Below, piece after piece: positions 40,684 to 64,000 of a stretch of 64,000 bases of DNA. A program made the position numbers and the translations under genes. The notes below the pieces were generated by a model. It saw only the letters and a list, made by a program, of their open reading frames with translations, did not search any database and was not told where the DNA came from. This stretch comes from Bacteroidaceae bacterium. Lineage in GTDB: Bacteria; Bacteroidota; Bacteroidia; Bacteroidales; Bacteroidaceae. The DNA lies in the NCBI GenBank assembly GCA_017649485.1, contig JAGCGS010000042.1, positions 1 to 64,000 of the forward strand. Reading direction: 5' to 3'. Numbering within the stretch: position 1 is the first letter of the stretch; each line of letters starts with the position of its first letter.

Positions 40684-40714
40684 TTGGTGGAATGATAAAT
40701 AATTGCTACTTTTA
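40684..40714 (+). promoter_or_regulatory. Possible promoter of the GH106-GH2 pair
   Basis: TTGG (40684-40687), 19 nt, TACTTTTA (40707-40714); one mismatch in each element against TTTG and TAnnTTTG. About 33 nt upstream of the GH106 ATG. Confidence 0.45.
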
Positions 40715-40747
40715 CACGCAAAAGAAATAACTAAAAACTTGAGCTAT

Positions 40748-43700
40748 ATGAAAAGATTTATTTGGGGAGCAGCTGCAAGCCTGATGCTGGTTTTAGGTAG
40801 CTGTGGCACACCATCTGCTGACGAGACATTGTATGGTGAGTTTCAGAACCCTCCAGCTGAGGCAAGACCTCGTGTATGGTGGCACTGGATGGATGGCAAT
40901 GTAACCAAGGATGGTATCTATAAGGACCTGACTTGGATGAAGCGTTCTGGCATTGCCGGCTTCATGAACTTCGATGCAGGATTTAGAACCCCATTGCTGA
41001 TAGACAAGAAAGTGGCTTACATGACAGATGAGTGGAAAGATGCCTTTGCTTACACTGTGCATCTGGCTGATTCTCTGGGATTAGAGATGTCTGTGGCGGC
41101 TTCACCGGGTTGGAGCTTTACAGGCGGTCCCTGGGTGGAGCCTAAAGACGGCATGAAGAAACTGGTGTGGCGAGAGATGCGAGTAATGGGTGGCACCACC
41201 TATGACGGTTTGTTGCCTATGCCTTACAGAACAATAGGAGCATTCCAGAATGTGCCACGCTCTAACGCAAATAATATCAATGCTGGGGGTGCCAACCCAG
41301 GTGAAGGCTATTATGCTGACATCGCTGTATTAGCGTTTAAGTTGCCTGAAGCTGACAAGAATCTGGCTAACCTGAATCCGCGAATCAGTTCCAGTGGTGG
41401 TGTATTCTCTTTGTTGAACCTTACTGATGGCGACCTTACAAACTCCGAACTGCTGCCTCCAGGGTCAGGTGGAGCTAATGGCAAAGCTTGGATACAGTAT
41501 GAGTTTGCTACTCCGCAGACAGTGAAGGCATTAACCATCGTGGACGGAAGGATTCGTGGCCAATGGGGCGCTCCAGTGCAAGAAATTAACAAAGTATTAC
41601 AAGCAAGCGATGATGGCGTTAATTTCCGCGAGGTTTGCAAGATACCTAACAGTTCGGCTCCTCAGGGCACAGTTGATATCCCTACTACTACGGCAAGGTA
41701 TTTCCGCTTGGTAATAGATAATGTAGTGACTGTCAATCCTTATGCAGCTTTGATGGGGGTAAGCGCTGAACCACAGGCTCAGCCAACTCCTATTGCAGAG
41801 TTTGTGTTGCACAGTGTGAGTCGCATCAATCATGCTGAGGAGAAAGCCGGCTTTGCCGCTCCTGCAGACCTTGCGTTATATGATACCCCTGATGAAAGTG
41901 CAGTTGTTTCATTGGAGGATGTAATCGACATTACCGATAAGGTACATGAAGGGCGTTTGGTTTGGGATGTACCTGAAGGAACTTGGAAGATTGTACGTTA
42001 TGGCTATTCACAGACAGGGCATCAGAACAACCCTGCTCCTCCAGAAGCTACAGGCTTCGAAGTGGATAAGATGGATCCCATTGCCTTCCGGGCTTATATG
42101 GATCACTACTTAGGTATGTACAAAGATGCTTCCAAAGACCAACTGGGTAAGGTAATAAAATACATCATGACAGACAGTTATGAGTCTGAGCAAGAGAACT
42201 GGACACCAGCTATGGAACAGGAGTTCGAAAATCGCAACGGCTATAGCCTGCGCCCTTGGATGCCTGTGCTGATGGGACAGATCGTGAACAGCTCGGAAGA
42301 AAGCGAGAAGTTCCTCCATGATTGGCGTCGCACCTTAGGTAGTTTGGTGACTGATTATTGCTACAATTTGCTGACTGACATCCTGAACGAGCGTGGCATG
42401 GGACGTTATACTGAGTCACATGAGAACGGACGCGTCTATCTGGTAGATGGTATGGAAGTGAAAGGCAAGGCAGATGTGCCTATGGCAGCTGCCTGGATGC
42501 CAAACAACACTGGTTCTTCCACCCCAGCCATGAGCCGTGCGGATATCCGAGAAGCTGCTTCTGTGGCTCATATCTACGGACAAAACCTGGTGGCAGGCGA
42601 GTCGCTCACCGCTCCTGGTGGCGAGGGTCAGTCTTATGCTTATCACCCAGGCAATCTGAAGTTCATTGCCGATATGGAAATGGCGAGTGGATTGAATCGT
42701 TTTGTGATTCATACCTCAGTGCACCAACCTCTTGACGAACTCAAGCCTGGCTTGGGCTTAGGTCCTATCGGACAGTGGTTCAACCGTCTTGACAACTGGT
42801 CAGGTTCTGCATGGGCTTGGATGGATTATATGGCCCGCAGTTGCTATCTGTTGCAAAAAGGCAAGTTTGTAGCAGACATCCTATATTATTATGGTGAGGA
42901 CAACAACATCACAGGCATGTTTGGTGCCGAGGAACCTGCTTTCCCTGCCGGATATAACTACGACTATATCAATAGCGATGCTTTGCTTAACTTGGTGTCT
43001 TATGAGTTTAACCGTCTGAAAACTGAGAGTGGCATGAGCTATCGTATGTTGGTACTCGATCCTAACGTGAAGCGTCTGCCTCTTGATGTGCTGAAGAAGA
43101 TTGCCGAACTGGCTAAGGCAGGTGCCGTGATTTGTGGAGCTAAGCCCGAATTGCCTGGTCGCCTGACGGATGATGTGGAGGAATTCAATGCTTTAGTCAA
43201 CGAGATCTGGGGTGGAGAGCTCAAGAATGTGTATCTGACCAACGACATGAAGAGTGTGCTCGACAAACTGGGTGTGAAGGCTGATGTGAACATTGGCAAC
43301 GACTTGCGCTTCGTTCATCGCCACACCAGCCGTGCAGACATCTATTGGATCAACAACCCCGAAGGGCCTGCCAAAACCGTTGAGCTTTCGTTCCGCGTTA
43401 AGGGCAAGAAGCCTGAGATCTGGCATCCAGAAACTGGTAAGCGTGAAGAGGTGACTTATCGCACGGAAGGTGGACGCACAGTTGTGAAGGTAAAGTTGGT
43501 GGAGAACGATGCCCTGTTTGTGGTGTTCAATGGTCCTGCGGAGCAAGAGGCTGTCACCCTGCCCGAGCTGAAAGAGAATACCCTGCTCACCATCAACACT
43601 CCTTGGAACGTAACTTTCCAGGAAAAACGCGGCGCACCGTCATCGGCTCAGTTCGACCAACTTATCAACCTGGTAGATAGCGATGTAGATGGCATCAAGT

Positions 43701-44062
43701 ACTTCAGTGGTGTGGCTACCTATACCAACAGCATCGAACTTACCGACGAGCAGCTGAATGCCGAGCAACTGGTACTCGATTTGGGCAACGTAGGTGTGAT
43801 GGCCGAGGTTATCATCAACGGCACCAACTTGGGCGTTTATTGGAAAGCCCCTTACCGTCTGGACATCAAGGAAGCGCTTCATGCTGGCAAGAACGACATT
43901 GAGGTGAAGGTTACCAATCTGTGGATCAACCGACTGATTGGTGACTCTATGCCCGATGTGACGGAAAAAGTGACGTGGTCGCAATATCCGTTCTACAATC
44001 CTCGGTCGCCGATGTCGCCATCCGGACTTATGGGACCTGTAAAAGTAATTGCTTTAAAATAA
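40748..44062 (+). CDS. GH106-like glycoside hydrolase (putative alpha-L-rhamnosidase), lipoprotein
   Basis: About 1104 residues. The leader MKRFIWGAAASLMLVLGSC has a lipobox, so it is probably outer-membrane anchored. FQNPPAEARPRVWWHWMDG and GIYKDLTWMKRSGIAGFMNF are typical of the GH106 family, known for alpha-L-rhamnosidases acting on pectic polymers. Also visible: TDSYESEQENWTP (about 475-490), YTESHENGRVYLVDGMEVKG, HTSVHQP, and a discoidin-like section at about 240-340 (KALTIVDGRIRGQWG). The C-terminal part (about 960-1104) is a GH2-like beta-sandwich. The frame starts earlier at 40703, but the signal peptide sets the start at 40748. It is 4 nt upstream of a GH2 gene. Confidence 0.87.
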   Translation: MKRFIWGAAASLMLVLGSCGTPSADETLYGEFQNPPAEARPRVWWHWMDGNVTKDGIYKDLTWMKRSGIAGFMNFDAGFRTPLLIDKKVAYMTDEWKDAFAYTVHLADSLGLEMSVAASPGWSFTGGPWVEPKDGMKKLVWREMRVMGGTTYDGLLPMPYRTIGAFQNVPRSNANNINAGGANPGEGYYADIAVLAFKLPEADKNLANLNPRISSSGGVFSLLNLTDGDLTNSELLPPGSGGANGKAWIQYEFATPQTVKALTIVDGRIRGQWGAPVQEINKVLQASDDGVNFREVCKIPNSSAPQGTVDIPTTTARYFRLVIDNVVTVNPYAALMGVSAEPQAQPTPIAEFVLHSVSRINHAEEKAGFAAPADLALYDTPDESAVVSLEDVIDITDKVHEGRLVWDVPEGTWKIVRYGYSQTGHQNNPAPPEATGFEVDKMDPIAFRAYMDHYLGMYKDASKDQLGKVIKYIMTDSYESEQENWTPAMEQEFENRNGYSLRPWMPVLMGQIVNSSEESEKFLHDWRRTLGSLVTDYCYNLLTDILNERGMGRYTESHENGRVYLVDGMEVKGKADVPMAAAWMPNNTGSSTPAMSRADIREAASVAHIYGQNLVAGESLTAPGGEGQSYAYHPGNLKFIADMEMASGLNRFVIHTSVHQPLDELKPGLGLGPIGQWFNRLDNWSGSAWAWMDYMARSCYLLQKGKFVADILYYYGEDNNITGMFGAEEPAFPAGYNYDYINSDALLNLVSYEFNRLKTESGMSYRMLVLDPNVKRLPLDVLKKIAELAKAGAVICGAKPELPGRLTDDVEEFNALVNEIWGGELKNVYLTNDMKSVLDKLGVKADVNIGNDLRFVHRHTSRADIYWINNPEGPAKTVELSFRVKGKKPEIWHPETGKREEVTYRTEGGRTVVKVKLVENDALFVVFNGPAEQEAVTLPELKENTLLTINTPWNVTFQEKRGAPSSAQFDQLINLVDSDVDGIKYFSGVATYTNSIELTDEQLNAEQLVLDLGNVGVMAEVIINGTNLGVYWKAPYRLDIKEALHAGKNDIEVKVTNLWINRLIGDSMPDVTEKVTWSQYPFYNPRSPMSPSGLMGPVKVIALK

Positions 44063-44066
44063 AGAT

Positions 44067-46538
44067 ATGAAAACTCTCAAACTGTTGGCAGTGGCTTTGC
44101 TGCTGCCAACTCTTTTACATGCACAGCGCCAAGAGGTGCTGTTGGAAAAAGGGTGGCAGTTCATCCACAAGGACGTAACCGATGCTTGGCGCACTGACTA
44201 TAACGACAGTGACTGGCAAACCGTGACGGTACCACACGATTGGGCCGTCTATGGTCCGTTCGACGGCAACAATGACCGTCAGATGGTAGCCATTGAGCAG
44301 GATGGCGAGTCCGAAGCTTCACAGAAGTCGGGTCGCACAGGTGGCCTACCTTTTGTAGGTGTGGGCTGGTATCGCAATAGCTTCGATGTGCCAACTGGGA
44401 AACAGACAGCCTTGATCTTCGATGGTGCTATGAGCGAGGCCCGCGTCTATATCAACGGCCACGAAGCCATTTTCTGGCCCTATGGCTACAACTCGTTCTA
44501 CTGCGATGTTACCCAGTATATTAATGCCGATGGCAAGCATAATGTGGTGGCTGTGCGTTTGGAAAACCACCCCTCGTCCTCGCGCTGGTACCCTGGAGCC
44601 GGACTCTACCGCAATGTACATGTGGTGACCTCCGAAAAGGTACATGTACCTGTGTGGGGCACTCACATCATTACCCCACATGTCGATAACGACTATGCTG
44701 CCATTAGCCTGCGCATCTCATTGGCCAACACTGAACACCAGCAAATGGTGCGCCTCGTGACTGACATCATCGCCCCCGACGGCCGCACCGTTTCCACCAA
44801 GGACGACACCAAGATGGCTGTTCACGATATCGCTTTCGGGCAGAACTTCATTGTGCAGCATCCACAACTGTGGTCGCCCGAGACACCTTATTTATATATA
44901 GCTCGCACGAAAGTATATGTTGACGGCAAGCAAGTGGACGAATACAACACCCGTTTCGGCATCCGAAGTATCGAGTATGTGACAGAGAAAGGGTTCTTCC
45001 TTAACGGCCAACTGCGTAAGTTCCAGGGTGTGTGCAACCACCACGACCTGGGCCCATTGGGAGCAGCCATCAACAAGGCAGCCCTGCGCCGCCAGCTCAC
45101 CTTGCTCAAGGACATGGGGTGCGATGCTATCCGCACCTCGCACAACATGCCAGCTCCCGAACTGGTGGAGCTTTGCGACGAGATGGGCTTTATGATGATG
45201 ATCGAGCCTTTCGACGAGTGGGATATGGGCAAGGTGGACAATGGCTACAACCGTTTCTTCCGCGAATGGGCAGAGCGCGATGTAACCAATATGGTAATGC
45301 ACTATCGCAACAACCCATCGGTAGTAATGTGGAGCATAGGCAACGAGGTGCCCAATCAGCGTGACCCCGAGGGCTATAAAGTGGTGGCTTTCTTGCAGGA
45401 CATCTGCCACAGGCTCGACCCTACCCGTCCTGTCACTATGGGCATCGACCAAGCAGAGAATACCCTGCACAACGGCTTTGCATCCACTCTCGACATACCA
45501 GGCTTTACCTATCGCCTACCTTTCTACCAGGAGGCCTACGACATCCTGCCCCAAGGTTTGGTGTTAGGCTCTGAAACCGCCTCCACCGTCAGCTCACGAG
45601 GCGTTTATAAGTTCCCTGTCGAATTGAAAGAAGGTGCCACCTACGACGACCTGCAGTCGTCCAGCTACGACACCGAGGCCTGCTGGTGGTCAAATATCCC
45701 CGACCTTGATTTTGCGATGGCGGATGACTACGAATGGGAAATCGGTCAGTTCGTATGGACGGGATTCGACTACTTGGGCGAGCCAACACCCTATTACGAC
45801 AACTGGCCTTCTCACAGCTCCTACTTCGGCATCATCGACCTGGCCTCCATTCCCAAAGACCGCTATTACCTCTATCGCAGCATTTGGAACAAAAAGGAGA
45901 GCACTTTGCACATCCTGCCCCACTGGACCTGGAAGAACCGCAAGGGGCAAGTAACTCCTGTATATGTTTATACAAGCTATCCAGAGGCAGAGCTGTTCAT
46001 CAACGGCAAGAGTCAGGGACGCCAGCACAAATGGACGGCAGCCGAGGCTAAGGCTCAAGAAGCGGCTTTAGGCAAGAAAGCCGTCATGCATCGCTATCGC
46101 CTGATGTGGGAGGATGTCCGTTATGAGCCAGGCGAGATAAAGGTAGTGGCTTATGATGCCCACGGAAACAAGACCGAAGAGAAGACTATCCGCACAGCTG
46201 GCAAGCCCGATCATCTGCAATTAACAGTTGACAGAACTCAGCTCGATGCCGATGGGCACGACTTGGCATATATCACTGTGGATGTGGTGGATAAGGATGG
46301 TAATCTTTGTCCAGATGACAATAGGTTGGTAAACTTTGAAGTCAGTGGAGCAGGCACTTTCCGTGCTTCTGCCAATGGCGACCCCACCTGCCTCGACCTG
46401 TTCCATCAGCCCAAGATGCATGCTTTTGCCGGACAGCTGACAGCTATCATTCAAAGCAGTGAGCAGGCTGGCAATATCACCCTGAAAGCTTCTGCCAAAG
46501 GACTTAAGCCAGCAAGTATCACTGTTTCTGCAAGATAA
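44067..46538 (+). CDS. GH2 family glycoside hydrolase (putative beta-galactosidase), exported
   Basis: An 823-residue GH2 enzyme with signal peptide 1-19 (ends LLHAQ). Order: sugar-binding jelly roll (about 22-190, WQTVTVPHDWAV), Ig-like domain (about 195-300), TIM barrel (about 300-590) with acid/base Glu427 in MWSIGNEVPN and nucleophile Glu503 in LGSETAS, then a DUF4982-type domain (about 625-710) and an invasin/Big-like domain (about 720-823, DLAYITVDVVDKDGNLCPD). Probably periplasmic beta-galactosidase or a related activity. It pairs with the GH106 enzyme, so the two may act on one pectin side chain (inference). No SusC/SusD pair is adjacent. Confidence 0.93.
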   Translation: MKTLKLLAVALLLPTLLHAQRQEVLLEKGWQFIHKDVTDAWRTDYNDSDWQTVTVPHDWAVYGPFDGNNDRQMVAIEQDGESEASQKSGRTGGLPFVGVGWYRNSFDVPTGKQTALIFDGAMSEARVYINGHEAIFWPYGYNSFYCDVTQYINADGKHNVVAVRLENHPSSSRWYPGAGLYRNVHVVTSEKVHVPVWGTHIITPHVDNDYAAISLRISLANTEHQQMVRLVTDIIAPDGRTVSTKDDTKMAVHDIAFGQNFIVQHPQLWSPETPYLYIARTKVYVDGKQVDEYNTRFGIRSIEYVTEKGFFLNGQLRKFQGVCNHHDLGPLGAAINKAALRRQLTLLKDMGCDAIRTSHNMPAPELVELCDEMGFMMMIEPFDEWDMGKVDNGYNRFFREWAERDVTNMVMHYRNNPSVVMWSIGNEVPNQRDPEGYKVVAFLQDICHRLDPTRPVTMGIDQAENTLHNGFASTLDIPGFTYRLPFYQEAYDILPQGLVLGSETASTVSSRGVYKFPVELKEGATYDDLQSSSYDTEACWWSNIPDLDFAMADDYEWEIGQFVWTGFDYLGEPTPYYDNWPSHSSYFGIIDLASIPKDRYYLYRSIWNKKESTLHILPHWTWKNRKGQVTPVYVYTSYPEAELFINGKSQGRQHKWTAAEAKAQEAALGKKAVMHRYRLMWEDVRYEPGEIKVVAYDAHGNKTEEKTIRTAGKPDHLQLTVDRTQLDADGHDLAYITVDVVDKDGNLCPDDNRLVNFEVSGAGTFRASANGDPTCLDLFHQPKMHAFAGQLTAIIQSSEQAGNITLKASAKGLKPASITVSAR

Positions 46539-46592: not shown

Positions 46593-48026
46593 TTACAACG
46601 TATTCTGTTTCAACGCCTCCACATAATTATCTATGCGCTGCATCTCCTGCGGGATGTCGATGCGTTGCGGACAGTTAGGTGTACACTGGCTGCATCCTGT
46701 ACAATGAGCAGCCTGACGGAGCTTAGGCACTGAACGGTCGTAACCCACCAGGAATGCCTGACGCATCTTGCGATACTCTGGGTCGCCCTGACTCTCTGGC
46801 AGATTGCCCTCATTCACACATTTATTATAGTGCAACAGTGTTCCAGGGATATCAAGACCATAAGGACAAGGCATGCAGTACTGGCAGTTGTTACACTGAA
46901 TGATGGGGTACTTGATGAGCAACTTGGTGGTTTCTTCAAGGAACTCGTTTTCTTCATCTGTAAGTGGAACCAATGGTGAGAACGAACGGATATTGTCTTC
47001 CAGATGCTCCATGTAGGTCATACCGCTCAGCACACTTACCACTTGGGGATGAGTACCTACCCAACGGAAAGCCCATGAAGCAACGCTGTTCTCAGGATTA
47101 CGTTCTTTGAGGCGATACACCAAATGCTGAGGCAAATTAGAAAGACGTCCACCCAGTAATGGCTCCATAATGACGATAGGAATATTGCGCTCAGCCAGCA
47201 TGTTGTACATAATCTCGCCCTGCACAGCATTCAGTCCCTGAGGAAAATGCCAGTCCTGATAGTTCATCTGAATCTGTGCAAAGTCCCAGTGAGCCTCTCC
47301 GCTATCGTGCATCTTCATCAGGTATTCCAGCACATCGATGTCACCATGATAAGAGAAACCCATGTTGCGGATGCGCCCGGCTTCTTTTTCCTGCATGAGG
47401 AACTCGTGCATGCCGATGTCAAGGTAGTTGGAGTGGAACTTCTGCATACCCGTTACTCCACCAGGTCCGAAGCCTCCAAGACCCGCACCGTGAATGAGGT
47501 AATAATCCAGGTAATCAACCTGCAGCTCTTCGAAAGAACGATGATATCCTGCCAACGCAACATTGCGGTCGTTACCGTTGCCATCCAAGAAAGTGGATAG
47601 TTTGGTAGCGATGTAATAGCTATCACGCGGATGACGCTTCAAGGCAATGCCAGTAGCACGTTCCGACTGTCCGCGACCATAGTGGGGAGATGTGTCGAAA
47701 TAGTTAACGCCATGCTCAATTGCGTAATCCACTAATCTATTCACTTGCTCTTGGTCGATGATCTCACCTTGTCCGTTGGGATTAGGAATCATAGGCCAGC
47801 GCATGCAGCCATAGCCCAAAAGTGAAATCTTATCACCGGTATTATGGTTAGTCCGATAGGTCATCTGCCCTGTTGGCACTGGGGTAGAATAATGACCTGC
47901 TGGGTCATACGCAGCATTCTTCTTGGGTCCGCAGCTTGCCAATGCCGCACCAGCAGCTACTGTAGCCCCTGCACCCATTACTTTGAGAAAATCTCTACGA
48001 TTTATATTATGCTTATTCTCTTCCAT
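46593..48026 (-). CDS. Aldo/keto reductase with 2[4Fe-4S] tail and Tat-lipoprotein leader
   Basis: About 477 residues. N-terminus: NINRRDFLKVMG (twin-arginine motif) and then AAGAALASCG, a lipobox, so it is probably exported folded and lipid-anchored. The barrel (about 50-350) shows LLGYGCMRWP, YFDTSPHYGRGQSE, a YLDYYLIH strand and VVSVLSGM. Two cluster motifs follow: CNNCQYCMPCP near 385 and CTGCSQCTPNCP near 445. A cytoplasmic NADPH enzyme would not need such a leader, so electrons may come through the iron-sulfur clusters (inference). It is last in an SDR-flavodoxin-polyferredoxin-AKR operon. The frame opens 3 codons earlier at 48035. Confidence 0.9.
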   Translation of the reverse strand: MEENKHNINRRDFLKVMGAGATVAAGAALASCGPKKNAAYDPAGHYSTPVPTGQMTYRTNHNTGDKISLLGYGCMRWPMIPNPNGQGEIIDQEQVNRLVDYAIEHGVNYFDTSPHYGRGQSERATGIALKRHPRDSYYIATKLSTFLDGNGNDRNVALAGYHRSFEELQVDYLDYYLIHGAGLGGFGPGGVTGMQKFHSNYLDIGMHEFLMQEKEAGRIRNMGFSYHGDIDVLEYLMKMHDSGEAHWDFAQIQMNYQDWHFPQGLNAVQGEIMYNMLAERNIPIVIMEPLLGGRLSNLPQHLVYRLKERNPENSVASWAFRWVGTHPQVVSVLSGMTYMEHLEDNIRSFSPLVPLTDEENEFLEETTKLLIKYPIIQCNNCQYCMPCPYGLDIPGTLLHYNKCVNEGNLPESQGDPEYRKMRQAFLVGYDRSVPKLRQAAHCTGCSQCTPNCPQRIDIPQEMQRIDNYVEALKQNTL

Positions 48027-48031
48027 AATTA

Positions 48032-48108
48032 TCAATCTTCAATAGTTAATGGTCAATTGTCAATGTTCAATTGTCAATCTTCAATCTTCAATCTTCAATC
48101 TTCAATTA
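48032..48108. repeat. Heptamer tandem array (TCAATnn)11
   Basis: Eleven 7-bp units in register, among them TCAATCT (five times or more), TCAATTG and TCAATGT, with variants TTAATGG and TCAATAG. The array fills the whole gap between the AKR gene and the stop codon of the polyferredoxin gene (48106-48108). Shorter arrays of the same unit are at 25488-25513, 27985-28009 and 33993-34009. Confidence 0.85.
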
Positions 48109-49662
48109 AATGACTCTATGCACCTCATGCCCCTCAACATGTATAGCACTAAGAGGACGCGACGGACAAAGATTCTCGCAAGCACCGCAACCGATGCAGA
48201 GCTCCTCGTTCACCACAGGAATCTTCTTCGACTGCGGGTCGCCCGGATCAGACAGCACCATCTGGATGGCAGAAGTAGGACAGTGACGCTCACAGTTGCC
48301 GCAATCCTGACCGTCACGTATAGGGATACACAGCTCGCGGGTCCATACAGCATGACCCACCTGAATAGACGACTTCTCGGCCACGTCAATCAGCTTGATG
48401 GCTCCGGCAGGACAAACCTCAGAGCAGCGAACGCACTCAGGACGGCAATAGCCAACCTCGAAGCTCGATTCCGGCTGCATCAGTGTCATCAGGTCGGTAC
48501 TTGGACGCAGCACGCCATTCGGACAAGCCGACACGCAGAGCTGGCAGCCCGTGCAATGACTTGCCAAGTTCTTCAGGCTCACTGCACCGGGAGGCACAAT
48601 CTTCGTAGCACGGTTGGGCTTCACCTTGTCGGCAATGTCAGCCAAGCCGCCATCCACTTTCTTATCGGTAGCCTCGGGTATAATCTGTGCCTTGGCTGCA
48701 GCGGCAGCACCTACGGCGATAGTGGTCAGGAAAGTACGCAAGCCCGGATCCTTCACATCCGTCTTAGCTTCAGCCTTTGGAGCAGGCTTCTCCACGACTA
48801 TCGGCTTCGGGAAAGCAGTTGCCATAGAAGGCACGGCAAACTTATAGCTCAATGCCCCAAACTTACACTTCTCCAAGCAGTTGCCGCAAGTCACACAGCG
48901 GCTGTAGTCAACGGTATGCGTCTTGAAGTCAATGCAGGAAGCCTTGCAGTTGCGTGAGCACATGCTGCAGCTCTTGCACTTCTCAGCATCGAAGGTGATG
49001 TGGAAGAATGAGAAGCGTGAGACGAATCCCAGCACGGTGCCCACAGGACAGATGGTGTTGCAATAGGTTCGCCCGTTCCTCCAAGCCAGCACGAAGATAA
49101 TCACCAGCGTCACCACAGCGATGATGAGGGTAGGCATCGACTTCACCCACACATCCACATCGTAGATGGCATAGCTCTCATATTTCTCGGCAATGGATGC
49201 CAGCACATTGTTGCCCAACCTGTAGATGGGCTGGAAGATGTTGCTGGCAATGCGGCCGTATGAGCTGTACGGAGCAAGCAGTGCCACAAACGAGCCTATG
49301 CCAGCGATGAGTGCCACGATGAACACGCCCAGCACAGAGTAGCGCAGTACGCTCTTTGCTTTGGAATAAGTGTAAGGGATCTTGCGCTCCTTCTTGGAAC
49401 GCGCCTGCTTGCCGAACCATGCGATGATGTCCTGGAAAACACCCATCGGACAGATGACCGAGCAGTAGATACGCCCGAAGATCAGGGTCAGGGCGATAAG
49501 CAGAATAATCACTCCTGCGTTGAGTGCCAGCACGGCAGGCAGGAACTGTAGTTTCGCCATCCAGGAGAACCATGCGTGTGTCACTCCAGTGAAATCCAGG
49601 AACATCAAAGTGATGCACACATAGAAGATGATGGCCAGCGTTAGTCTAATTTTACGTAACAT
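48106..49662 (-). CDS. Membrane polyferredoxin (NapH/RnfB-like mosaic)
   Basis: A 518-residue integral membrane iron-sulfur protein. The N-terminal half has about five helices (about 5-25, 45-65, 108-130, 180-200) with CSVICPMG and CNTICPVG loops typical of the NapH/YccM family. Soluble clusters follow: CKSCSMCSRNC and CVTCGNCLEKC (about 230-270), then after an Ala/Lys/Pro linker CTGCQLCVSACP, CVRCSEVCP, CGNCERHCP and CIGCGACENLCP. That is six [4Fe-4S] motif groups, enough for an electron wire across or along the membrane. It is 20 nt after the flavodoxin gene. Base composition looks more GC-rich than its surroundings. Confidence 0.9.
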   Translation of the reverse strand: MLRKIRLTLAIIFYVCITLMFLDFTGVTHAWFSWMAKLQFLPAVLALNAGVIILLIALTLIFGRIYCSVICPMGVFQDIIAWFGKQARSKKERKIPYTYSKAKSVLRYSVLGVFIVALIAGIGSFVALLAPYSSYGRIASNIFQPIYRLGNNVLASIAEKYESYAIYDVDVWVKSMPTLIIAVVTLVIIFVLAWRNGRTYCNTICPVGTVLGFVSRFSFFHITFDAEKCKSCSMCSRNCKASCIDFKTHTVDYSRCVTCGNCLEKCKFGALSYKFAVPSMATAFPKPIVVEKPAPKAEAKTDVKDPGLRTFLTTIAVGAAAAAKAQIIPEATDKKVDGGLADIADKVKPNRATKIVPPGAVSLKNLASHCTGCQLCVSACPNGVLRPSTDLMTLMQPESSFEVGYCRPECVRCSEVCPAGAIKLIDVAEKSSIQVGHAVWTRELCIPIRDGQDCGNCERHCPTSAIQMVLSDPGDPQSKKIPVVNEELCIGCGACENLCPSRPLSAIHVEGHEVHRVI

Positions 49663-49682
49663 ATCTCAAATTATAGTTAGAT

Positions 49683-50321
49683 TTAGAATCCCAATTCTTT
49701 CAGCCACTTCTCTACTCTATCCCTACTTGAACGTACCTCAGTTCCCTTGTTTGCCAAAGCCTTTTCAAATTTGGCGTTAGGGTATAGTTTCTTGAGGTCG
49801 TTCACTACACTGCCAAGTCCGCTTCCTTCGTGAGTAGTGAAAGGAATGATAGTTTTATCATTCAAGTCGTACTTGTCGAAGAAGCTGAACATCACCTGTG
49901 GGAATGTACCCCACCAGATAGGGGTACCAACAAAAATGATGTCATAATCAGCAAGGTTATCAACACTACCCTTAAAGGCTGGCTTCTCGCCTGTGCGTTG
50001 CTCTTCCTGCGCCACCTTGATCAATTCGCTATAGGGCATGTCATAGCTCTTCTCAGCCACCACCTCAAACTGGTCGGCTCCTGTGTAGTCTTTGATATAG
50101 TCAGCTACAACCTTTGTATTACCTACAGTGATATTCCCCACCGCATAGTTTTCGCCGGCATGAGAGAAAAAAACAATCAGTGCTTTCCCCTCTCGGTTAT
50201 TCTCAAGGGTTTCTTTCACAGGCTCACTGCTGTTGTTCTCTGCGTTAGCCTTGGGTGTTGCATTGCATGATGCACCCAGTAACATGCCAAAAGCTGTAAT
50301 CATGAATGTCTTTATGCTCAT
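49683..50321 (-). CDS. Lipoprotein flavodoxin
   Basis: A 212-residue flavodoxin-fold protein. Leader MSIKTFMITAFGMLLGASC with a lipobox, then a polar linker (about 20-45), then the flavodoxin core: ALIVFFSHAGENYAVG (FMN phosphate loop region), TKVVADYIKDYTGAD, DIIFVGTPIWWGTFPQ, TIIPFTTHEGSGLGS. Flavodoxins are normally cytoplasmic, so an exported copy next to a membrane polyferredoxin is notable. Second gene of the SDR-flavodoxin-polyferredoxin-AKR operon. Confidence 0.9.
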   Translation of the reverse strand: MSIKTFMITAFGMLLGASCNATPKANAENNSSEPVKETLENNREGKALIVFFSHAGENYAVGNITVGNTKVVADYIKDYTGADQFEVVAEKSYDMPYSELIKVAQEEQRTGEKPAFKGSVDNLADYDIIFVGTPIWWGTFPQVMFSFFDKYDLNDKTIIPFTTHEGSGLGSVVNDLKKLYPNAKFEKALANKGTEVRSSRDRVEKWLKELGF

Positions 50322-50353
50322 ATTTCAATTAGTATTAGAAAGTTGGAAATATA

Positions 50354-51190
50354 TCAATGTGTTTGTTTTAAGTACTGCAAATCGCCATACCAGTAGCTGG
50401 CTGTAGTGCCTCCATCAATAAGGAAGTCGGCACCAGAGATAAAACGTCCGCGACTGCTCATGAGGAATTCTGCCAAGTCGCCCACTTCATCGGGTGTGCC
50501 TGCCCTGCCGGCCGGACTTGCCTGCAGCATCTTGCGGTAGCCTTCGCCACGAGGCCCGTGCAGCTCATCGTTGGCTAAAGGTGTGATGATGATGCCAGGA
50601 CTGATACTGTTGATGGTGGCTCCTCGTTTGCCCCAGCGAGTAGCTTCATACATCACGCGCAATACGTTGCATCGCTTGGAGTACTGATAGGCTTTCAGCG
50701 TGTCGGTAATCTCTGTAAGGAACGGAAGCTGCAGCAGTTCGTCCACAGGAGTGGTGGCCAACAAGTCGCTCTGCTCTTGTGGCAGACTGCCCAGACGATG
50801 ACCTGACTGTGAAGAGATAACAATGCCTGAGCCTCCCTCAGCGATGACCTTGCCGAACTCTTCCAGCAAAACAGAAGTACCATATAAATCTACTTGCAGG
50901 ATATGCTCAACGCTTGCCTGAGATGGCGAGACCCCAGCGGCATTCACCACGTTCATCACCTCACCCTTGCTCTGCGCAAACTCCACCAGTTCCAGAATAG
51001 ACTCCTTTAAGCCTAAGTCTGTTTTAATCTGACTGCATTCAAAGCCTGCATCACCCAGAATCTTGGCAGCCGCCAACGAATTCTGTACGTTATAATCTGC
51101 TATGACAATATGCTTGCCTGCTCCAACACGGCGAATAATCGCCTGTCCGATGGAGCCAGCCCCTAATATTACTGCAACTTGTTTCTTCAT
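50354..51190 (-). CDS. SDR-family oxidoreductase
   Basis: A 278-residue short-chain dehydrogenase/reductase, cytoplasmic. NAD(P)-binding GAGSIGQAI (9-17), NAAGVSPSQ, IVISSQSGHRLGS with the catalytic Ser, YQYSK (YxxxK motif), SPGIIITPL and FISGADFLIDGG near the C-terminus. Substrate unknown. A TAACTTTG box at 51216-51223 suggests its own promoter, making it first in the operon with the flavodoxin, polyferredoxin and AKR. Confidence 0.92.
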   Translation of the reverse strand: MKKQVAVILGAGSIGQAIIRRVGAGKHIVIADYNVQNSLAAAKILGDAGFECSQIKTDLGLKESILELVEFAQSKGEVMNVVNAAGVSPSQASVEHILQVDLYGTSVLLEEFGKVIAEGGSGIVISSQSGHRLGSLPQEQSDLLATTPVDELLQLPFLTEITDTLKAYQYSKRCNVLRVMYEATRWGKRGATINSISPGIIITPLANDELHGPRGEGYRKMLQASPAGRAGTPDEVGDLAEFLMSSRGRFISGADFLIDGGTTASYWYGDLQYLKQTH

Positions 51191-51215
51191 AAGTCTGTTA
51201 TCTGTTGTTTTTTTG

Positions 51216-51223
51216 CAAAGTTA
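51216..51223 (-). promoter_or_regulatory. -7 box of the SDR-flavodoxin-polyferredoxin-AKR operon
   Basis: TAACTTTG on the minus strand, 25 nt upstream of the SDR ATG. It fits TAnnTTTG, but no TTTG lies at the -33 distance; the element may depend on an activator. Confidence 0.45.
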
Positions 51224-51326
51224 CAAATAACAGTTTATGAAGTTATATCCAAATTTGCTGTTCCTTTTTCACATTTTTCAGATTCTTAATGTGTCTGGAT
51301 AGAAACAGTACGAATCAAACGCCAAA

Positions 51327-51881
51327 TTACTCAATGCGTTTGATGAGTTTGGCAGGATTGCCGCCAACCACAGTATGCGGTTCCACGTCTTTGGTAACTA
51401 CGGCACCTGCGGCTACTACGGCTCCCTCTCCAATGGTCACGCCCGGACATACCACAACCCTTGCACCCAACCATGCCCCTTTGCAGATGCGCACTGGTTT
51501 GGGAATAAGCGTCCAAAGGTTATGGAACTCATGATTGATAGTCAGCACATTCACATCAGGACCTATCATCACATCATCTTCTATGGTAATGCCAGCCGAT
51601 GAGGTGGTGTGGAACCCATAGTTGATAAGCACCCGCTCACCAATGCTTATCTGGCAGGCATAGTCAATGCGTAGTGGCACACCGATGTTGGATGTAGCAG
51701 GCAAGCGATGCAGGAACAGCTCGTCCATCAGCTCACGTACTTTAGGGTCAAAGGGCTCTAACTGGTTAATCTGATGACACAACCTGGCACATCTTGCAGA
51801 CTCAGGGCGAAACTCAGCTGCCTGTGGATCAGTCTGCAGATTGATATGCTCTCCGTTCTTAAATCTTTCAAATACTGTCAT
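51327..51881 (-). CDS. Sugar O-acetyltransferase (left-handed beta-helix)
   Basis: A 184-residue hexapeptide-repeat acetyltransferase of the maltose/galactoside O-acetyltransferase group, using acetyl-CoA. N-terminal helical cap (about 1-60), then the beta-helix: [36 protein letters not shown] with the catalytic His, [20 protein letters not shown] and [12 protein letters not shown]. It starts 12 nt after the first receptor-like gene, so it is cotranscribed with it. Confidence 0.92.
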
Positions 51882-51893
51882 AATATATCGTTT

Positions 51894-54146
51894 TCAAAAA
51901 TTAATACTGGTGGTCAGTTCTACAGTGAACGGACGGATAAAGGTGCCAGCCATCACGTAGTTCTTATAAGGTGTGGGGTCAGTTACCAGGTCGGCTGATC
52001 CGATGGAGCCGCTTGCTCCCTTTTGATTGAGGATGTTCACCACATTGGCAGAAAAACGTACATGCCTGTTGAGCGTATAATCCACACCTCCGAAGGTTTC
52101 CCAACGCCCATTGAAATAAAGCGAATTGGTTTTGTTGATGTACTGCCTGCTGTAATACCGGGCACTGAGCCACACACGCCATTTGTCGAAACGATAGCTG
52201 GGCTCAATCTCCATCTCCAACTTCGAGATACCTGTCAAGGTGTTATTCGTAAAACTGTGAACTTCTGTCACCCCGTCGCTGAAGGTGGGCGATACGTCAA
52301 AGTTCTTGTATTGAGGATTACGGAAGGTGACCAGTGCATGAATACTCAATCCGCTGACGGGAGTAATAACAGCATCGGTAGTCCACCCTAAAGCTGCCTG
52401 ATCATAGTAAACCACAGGATATACCGTTTCATTCTGCCCAGCTTTCATGCCTCCGGCATCCTTCGTCAACACATGGTCGAAAGTAGCACGCAACTGTTCG
52501 TTGTTCTGCCTGATCCAGGTGATTTGTGAAGTAAGGTCAATCCAGTTGTTTTTCCAATAGATGCCCCCACGCAGATAGTTTGAGGTGATGCCCTTCTGCG
52601 AAGGGGTGTTATAGGTTCCGTAGTTGAATATCTGTGAGTGAAGCGTGGTACTCATATACTCGGCTTGCAGTCCAAATCCTCTCAACAACTCAAAACGTCC
52701 ACTCAAGATGTAGGCATTGTTGAAGTTGTTTTTATTGAAGTGATTAATGATTACTCCTGGCTCTTTCAAGTTGAATCCAGCACGACGCCTGTTGGCTTCT
52801 GTCACGTCATTGGCAGCATCGCCATTCACGTTAAGGTATTCCAAACGTAAGCCTGCTTTGAGCCAGAGGCGGTTGTTTACTGTCCACTCATCAGCGATGA
52901 AGCCGAATACTTTGTGCTCATGACCGTTGTAATACTCAGCGTATGAGTTGTAGGAGTAGCCTTCCTGCCCGTTATAAAGCAGCAATTTTGGGTCAGCCTT
53001 CACTTCGTGGGCAAACATATAGGCAGAGGTCTTTGTACCTCCGTGATTAAGCCAGTAATCCACCTCTGCCGTCCAGTGATGACGCTTGTTGCGACTGTAG
53101 CCGGAAAGCTGTGCGTTTGTCATCCACGAATGCTCGAAAGCATCGAAGTAGAGTTGTCGTCGGGTTTGTGCCCTACCCACGAACTCCGTACCATCTTCAT
53201 AAGTAAAGCCACCACCAGCCTCTGCGTTGGTCATACCCATCACCGAGGGGTTGGCACGATAAGAATGACCATGCTTCAGTTTACTGTTGACAGAAAGCTT
53301 AGTGCCATTGTCCCACTGATAATCTAAGGTGAAGTTCACATTATGTATCTTGTCTGTATTGGCATTGTTGATATTCATAGCCATCATCTGTCCTGTATAG
53401 ACATCCAGAAACTTAATGGTGTTGTTGGTTGGCAGATATTGGTCATAGCCCAGTTTAAAACCGTTATATTCTTTTACACTACCATCGCCCACGAAAACAA
53501 AGGGACCATAGTTCTCAGTAAGGTTCATGAAACGGGAATACTGATAAGTGAGGCCCATTTTTCCTCTTCCGTCAGCAAAAGTCTTAGAAAGAGAACCTTT
53601 GTAGAACTGCGTACGTTCCTTGAGATAACTCATTGCAAGCTGATTGCTTCCCGGGTCAAAGTTCTGATAGGTGCCCACACTGAAGCCCCAACCTCCACCA
53701 ATAGGAGTAGCGATATTGGCATCAACGGCCTGACGGCCAAACTGATTGAGCGTGTAGTTCACCCGTCCTTCAAAACTGTCGCCAGTCAGACGCGACTTAC
53801 TGTCAACACTATAGCTGATAACGCCATATTTCATCACCATATCCGAAGGTGACATCGTGGAAGTGCTCTCATGACTCACTCCGCTGTGCCACGACTTATA
53901 AGGATAAAGCTGGTAATTATAATAGGATACAGGAAGACCATCTTCATAGATATAGGCGTTGCCGCTAATGGGCAAACCCAAAGAAATCTGTCGGGGCTGA
54001 CTGGCAGAGGCAGCATTGAGCAGCATATTGCGGTTACTTCCTTCACCTTTAGCTTGCACACTGTCGTTTTTTTGAACCTGTGCAGTGATATTGGTACAAG
54101 CGAGAAGGCTTGCAGCAATGGCTAATAATCTTGGGGTATTCTTCAT
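51894..54146 (-). CDS. TonB-receptor-like outer-membrane barrel, paralogue 1
   Basis: A 750-residue outer-membrane protein. Signal peptide about 1-22 (ends NITAQ), then directly a plug-like segment (NRNMLLNAASASQPRQISLG, then IYEDGLPVSYYN) without the carboxypeptidase-regulatory domain usual in SusC-type receptors, then a long barrel ending FTVELTTSINF. I see no clear TonB box. Two more members of the same family lie at 55598-57847 and 60518-62764; this one is the most divergent. It leads an operon with the acetyltransferase. Its 3' end (about 63 bp) is found again at 59137-59200, and its upstream region at 59200-59439. Confidence 0.85.
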   Translation of the reverse strand: MKNTPRLLAIAASLLACTNITAQVQKNDSVQAKGEGSNRNMLLNAASASQPRQISLGLPISGNAYIYEDGLPVSYYNYQLYPYKSWHSGVSHESTSTMSPSDMVMKYGVISYSVDSKSRLTGDSFEGRVNYTLNQFGRQAVDANIATPIGGGWGFSVGTYQNFDPGSNQLAMSYLKERTQFYKGSLSKTFADGRGKMGLTYQYSRFMNLTENYGPFVFVGDGSVKEYNGFKLGYDQYLPTNNTIKFLDVYTGQMMAMNINNANTDKIHNVNFTLDYQWDNGTKLSVNSKLKHGHSYRANPSVMGMTNAEAGGGFTYEDGTEFVGRAQTRRQLYFDAFEHSWMTNAQLSGYSRNKRHHWTAEVDYWLNHGGTKTSAYMFAHEVKADPKLLLYNGQEGYSYNSYAEYYNGHEHKVFGFIADEWTVNNRLWLKAGLRLEYLNVNGDAANDVTEANRRRAGFNLKEPGVIINHFNKNNFNNAYILSGRFELLRGFGLQAEYMSTTLHSQIFNYGTYNTPSQKGITSNYLRGGIYWKNNWIDLTSQITWIRQNNEQLRATFDHVLTKDAGGMKAGQNETVYPVVYYDQAALGWTTDAVITPVSGLSIHALVTFRNPQYKNFDVSPTFSDGVTEVHSFTNNTLTGISKLEMEIEPSYRFDKWRVWLSARYYSRQYINKTNSLYFNGRWETFGGVDYTLNRHVRFSANVVNILNQKGASGSIGSADLVTDPTPYKNYVMAGTFIRPFTVELTTSINF

Positions 54147-54152
54147 AAATGA

Positions 54153-54400
54153 TACATGTTTAATTCGTTTACAAATTTACGGCTTTTCACCAAAAAAACA
54201 ATTACCATAAATTCGGGTAGAGTTATCAATAATTCCTTTTCTTGCATCTTTAGAAAGAAATACACCGACAAAAGGTGTTTTTGACAAATTCGCCAGCACA
54301 TTATGTAAGCATACTCTTGAAGAAATTTTGTGTCTTTGTGCCGATAAACTTTATTATAGAATCATGAAAGCATTGTTGATTAATGGAAGCCCCGCATGCC
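54153..54400 (+). repeat. Duplicated upstream region, copy 1
   Basis: About 245 bp (from the receptor 1 upstream region into the first 37 bp of a flavoprotein gene) is repeated nearly unchanged at 59200-59439. In this copy the plus-strand -7 box is TGTCTTTG instead of TATCTTTG, so the promoter is also damaged. Confidence 0.9.
54364..54400 (+). pseudogene. 5' stub of an FMN-reductase-like gene
   Basis: ATGAAAGCATTGTTGATTAA and the next bases match the start of the intact gene at 59404 (MKALLINGSP). One inserted C shifts the frame after about nine codons, and similarity stops at about 54400, where the terminator of the neighbouring reductase begins. Only the stub remains. Confidence 0.85.
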
Positions 54401-54416
54401 CAACCCAGATGACAGG

Positions 54417-54454
54417 AAAAGAGGGATGCGCCCCAATGATGGCACATCCCTCTT
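54417..54454 (-). terminator. Terminator of the Dabb-AraC-receptor-AKR operon
   Basis: On the minus strand AAGAGGGATGTGCC pairs with GGGCGCATCCCTCTT (10-bp outer stem plus inner pairs), followed by TTC; T-content after the stem is weak (CTCTTTTCC). Confidence 0.7.
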
Positions 54455-54467
54455 GTTTCAAAAGTAG

Positions 54468-55580
54468 TTACTCAAATGTCTTGGCTACCTCTTTCATGAC
54501 CTCACTAATCTGGATGTGCTGCGGGCAAATCTTCTCGCATTTACGACATTGGATGCAATCGGAGGCCTTGCCGTGCGTTAGAATAAGATTGGCATAGTAG
54601 GTGGCCTCTGAGGTCATAGCTTCCTTGAAACGTTTCTTTGAGTTGTAAAGAGAGAAATATTCAGGGATGGCTATTTGTTTCGGACATCCCTTCACACAAT
54701 AGCGACAGGCTGTGCAGGGTACGGCAATGCTGCCATTGATGATGCTGGCCGCACTATGCGTGAGGGCAAGTTGCTCATCAGTTAGCGGTATGAATTCCTG
54801 CATATAAGAGGTGTTATCATCCAGTTGTTCATAGTTGCTCATTCCCGAAAGAACCATCATCACCTGTGACTGTGAAGCAGCAAAACGGATGGCCCAAGAG
54901 GGGATGGACAACTTTGGCTCTGACTGCTTGAACATGGTGCTGACCTCGTCGGGAACATCTACCAATGTTCCTCCTTTAACAGGCTCCATCACTACCACAG
55001 GCTTCTGGTGCTTGCAGATAACTTCATAGCATTTGCGCGATTGGATGCGGTCGCTCTCCCAGTCAACGTAATTCAGCTGGATCTGCACCAGTTCTATTTC
55101 GGGATGTTCCGTGAGGATATGGTCAAGCAACTCTGCATTATCATGAAAAGATATGCCTACGTGCTTGATTTTCCCTTCTGCTTTCTGCTGTAGTAAGAAG
55201 TCGAAGCTTTTCAGTTTTAGGGCGTTCTTGTAGTTCGCCTCGTTTAACGAGTGCAGCAAATAGTAGTCGAAATAGCTCACGCCTACTTTTTGCAACTGTT
55301 TTTGAAAGACTTCACGTTGTTGTTCTTCTGAACGAAGCATGACGAGCGGTAGTTTTGAAGTCACGGTGAACCTGTTGCGCGGATAGCGTTCTACCAGCAC
55401 TTCTCGCAGCACCTCTTCGCTCTTGAAGTTATGATACATCCAGGCGGTGTCGAAATAGGTGAATCCGCGTTCAATGAATGTATCTACCATTTTCTTCAGT
55501 TGTTCCTTGTCAAAACTCGTCTGATCTGAAGGGTCAAGCAAGGGTAATCTCATAAAACCAAAACCAAGTTTCTTTGCCAT
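54468..55580 (-). CDS. Aldo/keto reductase with 2[4Fe-4S] tail, cytoplasmic type
   Basis: A 370-residue aldo/keto reductase fused to a ferredoxin-like tail. Barrel: LGFGFMRLPLLD, YFDTAWMYHNFKSEEV, YFDYYLLHSLN, KHVGISFHD, VMEPVKGGTLVD, MMVLSGMSNY. Tail: CTACRYCVKGCP (about 288-299) and CIQCRKCEKICP (about 343-354). Unlike the homologue at 46593 it has no leader, so it is probably cytoplasmic. It is 17 nt after receptor 2 and last in the Dabb-AraC-receptor-AKR operon. Confidence 0.93.
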   Translation of the reverse strand: MAKKLGFGFMRLPLLDPSDQTSFDKEQLKKMVDTFIERGFTYFDTAWMYHNFKSEEVLREVLVERYPRNRFTVTSKLPLVMLRSEEQQREVFQKQLQKVGVSYFDYYLLHSLNEANYKNALKLKSFDFLLQQKAEGKIKHVGISFHDNAELLDHILTEHPEIELVQIQLNYVDWESDRIQSRKCYEVICKHQKPVVVMEPVKGGTLVDVPDEVSTMFKQSEPKLSIPSWAIRFAASQSQVMMVLSGMSNYEQLDDNTSYMQEFIPLTDEQLALTHSAASIINGSIAVPCTACRYCVKGCPKQIAIPEYFSLYNSKKRFKEAMTSEATYYANLILTHGKASDCIQCRKCEKICPQHIQISEVMKEVAKTFE

Positions 55581-55597
55581 AGTGATAAGATGTTAAT

Positions 55598-57847: not shown

Positions 57848-57860
57848 ATATTCAATGTGA

Positions 57861-58700
57861 TTATTTTTTTGGTTTTAATAACACTTCAGTAGGAGAAACA
57901 CCATATTTCTCTTTAAATACTTTTGTAAAATGGGAACGGTTTTTGAATCCCACTTCATAAGCAACGTCGGTTACTCCCTTGCCTCCATCTTCCAATAAGC
58001 TGTATGCCATTTCCAAACGTTTATTAACTATCCATCTTTCAGGTGGCAACTTGCTTATTTTGGCAAAATCACGTTTGAAAGTAGCAAGCGATCTTCCTGT
58101 GTAATTGGCTATCTCGCTCACTGAAAGATTATACATGTAGTTTTCATTCATGAAATCCAGAATATCAATCTTCCATGATTCGGCAAAATCGAACAATGTG
58201 GGGAAGAAACGCTCATCAATTGACAATAAGGCCAAAATGCCTTCTTCCAACTTCAGATTCATCAGAGCTTCACTGGGATTCAAAACAGAAGATGTGTAAG
58301 GCATCATGGAAAGGAACAAACTCTCTAACTGAGGATGTCCCTTCAGCAGAACAATAGACTCCTCTATTCTATCCAAACGACTTTCGGGTACTTCAAAAAC
58401 ATCTTGGTGAAAGCATTTTCGTAAGAAGTCCCTATGAAACTCTAATGTAATACACTGGAAGTCTTCATCTTTTAACGGATATTTCCGCAGGCTTACACGG
58501 TGATCTCTACGTATAAACACGCACTCGCCAGCTTTAACAAGGTGTTTATTCTTGCCATCGTCAATTTCCATCTCTCCTTTTAGCACATATTTCAGGCTAT
58601 GTGCTTTCATACGTTCAACATGATGCTCGTCACCTTGCTGTATATAGATGAAGAATACATCTGAAAACTGGCGGACGCTTTGTTTTTGCTGATCAATCAT
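57861..58700 (-). CDS. AraC-family transcriptional regulator 1
   Basis: A 279-residue AraC regulator. N-terminal cupin-like sensor part (about 25-110, MKAHSLKYVLKGEMEIDDGK, GECVFIRRDHRVSLRKY) and a C-terminal double helix-turn-helix (about 180-275: LSVSEIANYTGRSLATFKRD, VTDVAYEVGFKNRSHFTKVF, KEKYGVSPTEV). It is inside the operon it probably controls, 13 nt before receptor 2 and 35 nt after the Dabb gene. Confidence 0.93.
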   Translation of the reverse strand: MIDQQKQSVRQFSDVFFIYIQQGDEHHVERMKAHSLKYVLKGEMEIDDGKNKHLVKAGECVFIRRDHRVSLRKYPLKDEDFQCITLEFHRDFLRKCFHQDVFEVPESRLDRIEESIVLLKGHPQLESLFLSMMPYTSSVLNPSEALMNLKLEEGILALLSIDERFFPTLFDFAESWKIDILDFMNENYMYNLSVSEIANYTGRSLATFKRDFAKISKLPPERWIVNKRLEMAYSLLEDGGKGVTDVAYEVGFKNRSHFTKVFKEKYGVSPTEVLLKPKK

Positions 58701-63808: not shown

Positions 63809-64000
63809 ATGGGAAAGACATTAATCGCTTTTTACTCCCGTAGAGGGGAGAATTATGTGAACGGCAGCCTCAGAAACCTGGCATTAGGCAACACCGAAAT
63901 TGTGGCTGGCAAGATTCAGGCTTTGCTGCCCGATGCAGACATGTTCCAGATTGAGACGGTGAAGAAGTACTCACCCGACTATATGACTTGCATCGAGGAA
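63809..64000 (+). CDS. Flavodoxin, N-terminal part (cut by window end)
   Basis: The first 64 codons of a flavodoxin: MGKTLIAFYSRRGENYVNGS (FMN loop region), then GNTEIVAGKIQALLPDADMF. It resembles the exported flavodoxin at 49683 (HAGENYAVGNITVGNTKVVA) but has no leader, so it is cytoplasmic. The gene runs out of the window. Confidence 0.9.
   Translation, partial: MGKTLIAFYSRRGENYVNGSLRNLALGNTEIVAGKIQALLPDADMFQIETVKKYSPDYMTCIEE

Follow-up and report, generated by a model that had tools for sequence, protein, structure and literature searches.

A stretch of 64,000 nucleotides from a Bacteroidaceae bacterium (GenBank assembly GCA_017649485.1, contig JAGCGS010000042.1), here called the window, carries at 46593-51190 on its minus strand four genes, transcribed in the order short-chain dehydrogenase/reductase (SDR), flavodoxin (FLD), membrane polyferredoxin (PFD) and aldo/keto reductase (AKR). 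An earlier interpretation made from the letters without database searches, the sequence-only reading, had joined all four into one extracytoplasmic electron chain. All four open reading frames (ORFs) are open over their coordinates (Table 1), and Pfam and NCBIfam matches bear out their domains and their adjacent, same-strand order. The core of the locus is the PFD–AKR pair, not one conserved four-gene system. With rather better than even confidence, we propose that the pair is a transmembrane electron-transfer module of two proteins, dependent on twin-arginine translocation (Tat), in which the PFD serves an exported AKR, the reductive direction being favoured. Domains, motifs, export signals, the conserved pairing and the presence of Tat were all computed.

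Conservation of the PFD–AKR pair

Among 295 Bacteroidales genomes, PFD relatives (E <= 1e-20) occur in 137 and AKR relatives (E <= 1e-80) in 49. A same-strand PFD lies no more than 300 nt from 49 of the 57 AKR matches and within 5 kb of three more. The adjacent pair is present in 45 of the 49 AKR-bearing genomes and, counted from the other partner, an AKR lies beside 48 of the 52 high-scoring PFDs. A further 80 loci, retrieved from named genomes by means of the AKR, are the best 80 matches and partly overlap the 295-genome set (L160 and L072 share the same AKR); 66 of them have the PFD directly upstream, and 72 have it within 7 kb. Among the 14 that have no PFD immediately upstream, two (L185 and L195) are truncated where the contig or stretch begins, and three (L155, L190 and L194) have a PFD downstream. 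The recurrence of this adjacency throughout the order shows that it is not due to chance alone.

The AKR was found in only 4 of 395 drawn Bacteroidota genomes, each of which belongs to the order or family of the window. The best 80 loci also include three Chitinivibrionia or Chitinispirillia-type bins, one labelled Kapaibacterium and one Deltaproteobacteria, the bin labels being unchecked. No published description of the pair was found in the open-licence literature, an absence that carries little weight; PMC13404670, in the part available, concerns other proteins.

The linkage predicted for all four genes holds for the PFD and AKR, is weak for the flavodoxin and is rare for the SDR. Within 2.2 kb of the pair, a Flavodoxin_4-type gene lies in 11 of 166 loci, the window included, and the SDR in 4 of 166; both together occur only in the window and L042. 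The four genes as one unit were rejected on these counts.

The Tat system assumed by the sequence-only reading is present in the window genome, with TatC at 194.8 bits and, beside it, TatA at 55.1 bits. The tatC gene lies within 10 kb, always on the same strand, in 31 of the best 80 loci. TatC was found in all 49 AKR-bearing genomes of the survey, compared with 195 of the 246 others (Fisher p = 4.8e-5, relatedness not corrected). The TatC frame of the window genome (L001 1474-3378) reads on into a long charged, alanine-rich tail, giving an ORF of 634 aa.

The aldo/keto reductase

Aldo/keto reductases are known from textbooks as enzymes of the cytosol that use NAD(P)H. The AKR of the window scores 128.5 bits against Aldo_ket_red (PF00248; cut-off 24) and 30.3 bits against Fer4_9, also above cut-off. 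Its N-terminus, NINRRDFLK...ALASC, is a twin-arginine signal followed by a lipobox cysteine. As a start codon, the ATG at 48026 seems preferable to the TTG at 48035. The N-termini of 133 AKRs were surveyed, of which three could not be judged; 129 of the 130 assessed have the Tat motif and 123, by a simple pattern, a lipobox as well. Some AKR frames continue into a longer open frame of 616-648 aa.

In 25 aligned sequences, the residues D111/Y116/K142/H179, which we take to be the Asp-Tyr-Lys-His tetrad of the AKR motif, are invariant, and so are the eight cluster cysteines of the tail. The barrel and the tail are therefore both under selection. Among proteins of solved structure, the closest relatives in sequence are L-galactose dehydrogenases (8scc, 7smi) and the oxidoreductase 1ynp, and the C-terminal stretch can be aligned to that of the L-galactose dehydrogenases, NAD(P) binding being judged from sequence alignment alone. 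Given the fixed tetrad and this alignment, the former suggestion that the enzyme does without NADPH is unproven. The tetrad and the alignment would also suit an AKR that works alone, exported by Tat with NAD(P) tightly bound in the manner of the glucose-fructose oxidoreductase of Zymomonas, its Fe-S tail being structural or regulatory and the PFD serving some other step, as would the few AKRs that have no PFD nearby. Such a solitary enzyme leaves unexplained the near-fixed PFD neighbour and the eight invariant cysteines, and we hold it to be improbable.

The polyferredoxin

The PFD has 30 cysteines, and six [4Fe-4S]-type cysteine groups start at residues 229, 256, 370, 410, 454 and 489. Two CX3C(P) motifs lie at 67/71 and 201/205. 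The hydropathy profile shows four strong peaks (2.17-2.78) and then a weak fifth (peak 1.42, residues 310-328), which is followed by a domain with the last four of the [4Fe-4S] motifs. Judged by hydropathy, the protein fits a general NapH-like membrane module, with four transmembrane helices, two CX3CP motifs and, after them, the [4Fe-4S] motifs at 229 and 256; Fer4_5 is above cut-off. The NCBIfam models for NapH/MauN were both missed (75.5 bits against a cut-off of 213.05 for TIGR02163 and 68.2 against 234 for PRK09477), and the second half scores 57.9 bits against NapG, under the cut-off of 269. As these scores are under the curated cut-offs, we regard the PFD as NapGH-like in its working, not as a NapGH equivalog. 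Just before the fifth segment lies an internal twin-arginine position; among 144 homologues it reads RR in 115, KR in 23, RK in three and LR in three, so that 141 of 144 have one of the first three forms.

Different heads on one proposed wire

The PFDs fall into two groups, one beside an AKR and one downstream of a Tat-signal DUF362 protein. The neighbour is an AKR for 108 of the 144 distinct PFDs, DUF362 for 26, both for one and neither for nine. In a FastTree phylogeny, the 134 PFDs with a single neighbour split perfectly at one branch (support label 97), with one change of neighbour. Of the 144, 81 come from the window and other genomes, hand-picked from PFD matches (48 AKR, 26 DUF362, seven neither), and 63 come from the AKR-fetched loci (60 AKR, two neither, one both). 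The proportions are thus biased to the AKR by the sampling, and the split on the tree is independent of them. The second pair is also widespread, being seen in L036 (6597-9051) and at 25 other loci.

The window genome has two PFDs and three AKRs. The two PFDs are 94.6% identical with a dN/dS of 0.029. The three AKRs are 62-68% identical, with the lowest likeness around residues 161-280, and dN/dS is 0.089 for the only pair whose dS is unsaturated. We read this pattern of substitution as probably that of a wire under constraint, whose heads diverge in the substrates they take. We suggest tentatively, and with confidence that stops short of even, that such a swappable module, one wire with diverging heads (AKR or DUF362 by lineage), gives Bacteroidales a periplasmic AKR chemistry independent of NAD(P)H, in which the AKR may be a terminal reductase or a respiratory dehydrogenase.

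The two kinds of partner also bear on the idea that the PFD lies off the catalytic path and maintains the exported AKR, keeping its Fe-S clusters or another cofactor reduced or assembled. Relatives have been assigned such roles besides electron transfer, NosR in the activation of NosZ and NapH in the attachment of NapF (PMC5928378, in the part available), and the frequent nearness of tatC would suit a maturation unit. Six cluster motifs in the PFD and two in the AKR are better suited to a conducting chain, however, and the other partner of this PFD family, DUF362, is an unrelated protein for which Pfam gives no match to an Fe-S family. We consider a role in maturation or repair very improbable.

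Proposed working and the direction of electron flow

For the conducting module that we favour, we infer the topology, the contact between PFD and AKR, the direction, the donor and the substrate. The membrane half of the PFD would consist of four helices with the two CX3CP motifs and two [4Fe-4S] clusters on the cytoplasmic side; its outer half would follow the Tat-type fifth segment and place four [4Fe-4S] clusters in the periplasm. The AKR would acquire its fold and cofactors in the cytoplasm, be exported by Tat and be held by a lipid anchor on the periplasmic side. Electrons would then pass between the outer clusters of the PFD, the 2[4Fe-4S] tail of the AKR and the active site in the barrel. 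The wire could be reduced by a low-potential cytoplasmic donor, e.g. a ferredoxin, or by menaquinol if the substrate were of high potential, and the AKR would in turn reduce a periplasmic carbonyl or similar electrophile. An exported flavodoxin, at loci that have one, may bridge one- and two-electron steps.

Menaquinone has a potential of about -0.07 V, carbonyl/alcohol couples lie at about -0.2 V and ferredoxins at about -0.4 to -0.5 V. It follows that reduction of a carbonyl with a ferredoxin as donor is downhill, and that the oxidative direction is downhill as well. Rnf/Nqr-type genes are found in the window genome, so low-potential carriers are plausible. Since the occasional neighbours of the pair are reductive in character, we lean to reduction, which we would rate as roughly twice as probable as oxidation.

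The same wiring might run in reverse. The AKR would then be a periplasmic dehydrogenase that oxidizes an alcohol or sugar, and its electrons would reach menaquinone through the Fe-S tail and the PFD in anaerobic respiration. That its best solved relatives are L-galactose dehydrogenases points this way, as does the downhill path from an alcohol to menaquinone. Genes for a GH106 rhamnosidase and a GH2 enzyme adjoin the window pair, the other two AKR copies of the genome lie near esterase genes, and NapH-like clusters are also described with the alcohol oxidase ExaA (PMC8238504, in the part available). Against this, the best 80 loci show no conserved gene of a sugar or alcohol pathway near the pair, and the occasional exported redox neighbours (flavodoxin, nitroreductase and DUF362) suit reductive chemistry at least equally. 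Oxidation seems to us possible, if on the unlikely side.

Several points weigh against the reductive module. From menaquinol to an ordinary carbonyl the reaction would be uphill by roughly 0.1 V, and the quinol that had been offered as an electron source is for that reason a poor one for a carbonyl. [4Fe-4S] clusters are one-electron carriers and AKR chemistry takes hydride; no flavin protein that could bridge the two is conserved beside the pair in the sets of 80 and 166 loci. The best 80 loci share no conserved substrate gene near the pair, and 5 of the 57 AKR matches, the third AKR copy of the window genome among them, have no PFD nearby. Finally, the internal Tat site of the window PFD has LR, not RR, as do its paralogue and the protein of L111, so that export of its C-terminal outer half is uncertain.

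The locus and its neighbours

Table 1. Features of the PFD–AKR locus in the window
Feature	Position	Strand	Basis
AKR: Tat-lipoprotein aldo/keto reductase with C-terminal 2[4Fe-4S] domain	46593..48026 (ORF from TTG 48035: 46593-48035)	-	Pfam Aldo_ket_red and Fer4_9; Tat motif and lipobox by eye; invariant tetrad and cluster cysteines
7-bp tandem repeat array, 10.7 copies, in the PFD–AKR gap	48032..48106	.	Tandem Repeats Finder
PFD: membrane polyferredoxin, NapH-type N-terminal half and NapG-type C-terminal half	48106..49662	-	NCBIfam below cut-off; six cluster motifs; hydrophobic peaks
Degenerate internal Tat site LRTFL and weakly hydrophobic fifth segment (residues 308-328) within PFD	48679..48741	-	Alignment of 144 homologues
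Flavodoxin_4 with export leader (loose lipobox), loosely linked	49683..50321	-	Pfam; linkage 11/166 loci
SDR, PRK06940 subfamily, without leader, rarely linked	50354..51190	-	NCBIfam; linkage 4/166 loci
Hexapeptide acetyltransferase, neighbour, doubtful member	51327..51881	-	Pfam Hexapep; HEX-like gene and SDR also upstream of PFD–AKR in L124

By their coordinates, the genes are separated by 32 nt (SDR-FLD), 20 nt (FLD-PFD) and 79 nt (PFD-AKR, counted to the AKR ATG), and the 7-bp repeat, TCAATCT, makes up most of the last gap. Similar short arrays are present in L035, from the same genome; a search for arrays of the same pattern gave none in 2.55 Mb of loci from other genomes.

The flavodoxin scores 87.2 bits against Flavodoxin_4 (PF12682; cut-off 24), and its hydrophobic leader ends in LGASC, a plausible but loose lipobox. 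Leaders were seen by eye in the linked flavodoxins. They are also common away from the pair: a control was entered with 30 loci (L213, L218 and L224 were not parsed, and the leaders of the L213 and L218 proteins were seen by eye), and 16 of the 20 unlinked Flavodoxin_4 proteins that were parsed, from 15 genomes, have a hydrophobic leader, the other four having none. An exported flavodoxin was therefore rejected as a hallmark of the locus. Of the two proteins that the sequence-only reading had placed outside the cytoplasm and linked by a membrane Fe-S wire, the AKR beside its PFD stands as a prediction and the flavodoxin loses its special place. In L143 (7663-10398), an AKR gene is directly preceded by two genes for exported flavodoxins, and there is no PFD within 7 kb. 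A further, leaderless Flavodoxin_4 gene lies at 63884-64000 and crosses the right end of the window (G000:C50:63884-64273). The SDR matches NCBIfam PRK06940 at 410.7 bits (cut-off 280) and has no visible leader; in L138 an SDR is present, and the flavodoxin is about 5 kb away and without a visible leader.

Other genes accompany the pair now and then. DUF1893 (TM1506) genes are near it in 22 of the 166 loci (e.g. L102 8072-8620 and L099 4122-4565), DUF362 lipoprotein-type genes in eight and an ECF-S-like gene in 28; the one ECF-S-like protein scanned scores 27.8 bits against Pfam ECF, under the cut-off of 30.7. Exported CMD and nitroreductase proteins also occur, one of each having been scanned. 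In Listeria, an ECF-type exporter for flavin has been described (PMC9973259, in the part available), which by analogy may offer a lead for the ECF-S-like neighbour.

The GH106 alpha-L-rhamnosidase and GH2 enzyme genes occupy 40703-46538 on the opposite strand and are convergent with the AKR gene. At 54468-55580 lies another ferredoxin-tailed AKR; it has no visible leader and sits between two large receptor-like proteins without Pfam hits; an AraC-type regulator (57861-58700) adjoins this region. Nearby receptors had been suggested as a way in for the substrate; the two receptors of the window were unmatched in the other loci scored and were rejected as linked members. A Pfam scan of nine window proteins (46593-58700), the PFD included, gave no FMN_bind domain.

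Comparison with known systems

Glucose-fructose oxidoreductase of Zymomonas is said to be exported by Tat together with its nicotinamide cofactor; it reportedly has no Fe-S domain or membrane partner and belongs to a different fold family. MsrPQ, as is proposed here for PFD and AKR, reportedly couples a membrane electron donor to a Tat-exported periplasmic reductase, but the two parts are said to be a haem b membrane protein and a molybdoenzyme, and the methionine sulfoxide that they repair to be a much better acceptor than a carbonyl. MsrPQ is named in PMC5449189 (in the part available).

The NapGH quinol dehydrogenase has, like the PFD, a four-helix membrane half with two CX3CP motifs and 2[4Fe-4S], and a half with four [4Fe-4S]. 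In contrast to NapGH, the PFD is a single fused polypeptide, scores far below the NapH and NapG cut-offs and has an AKR as its partner, not a nitrate reductase. The CX3CP motifs are needed in NapH and in NosR (PMC5928378, in the part available). A NapH-NapG-type fusion polyferredoxin of MLMS-1 was established as a Sec-Tat protein by reporter fusions, and this dual Sec-Tat polyferredoxin (Q1NSB0; Tooke et al. 2017, PMC5449189, in the part available) has the same layout, with a membrane half, an internal Tat site before the fifth transmembrane segment and four outer clusters. Compared without direct alignment, the window PFD differs in lacking the twin arginine that marks these proteins, LR standing in its place, and in having six motifs where seven clusters are stated for Q1NSB0. 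The available part of that paper names no AKR partner for the MLMS-1 protein. NapH-like proteins have also been described in a modular role, serving a variety of extracytosolic reductases and oxidases. They include the ApbE-flavinylated systems, with PceC/RdhC and NosR (Meheust et al. 2021, PMC8238504, in the part available), which resemble the PFD in using a membrane Fe-S module for various extracytosolic oxidoreductases. Unlike these, the PFD has no FMN_bind by Pfam, and the term 'aldo' is absent from the main text of PMC8238504.

If the proposed working is true, gut anaerobes would reduce carbonyls or oxidize alcohols outside the cytoplasm in exchange of electrons with the membrane, which would bear on their handling of dietary or host compounds. 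The NapH-NapG fusion polyferredoxins, which we found described for their Sec-Tat biogenesis, would gain a catalytic partner that can be tested. By analogy with these systems, we read the PFD–AKR pair as probably a variant of NapH-like extracytosolic electron transfer.

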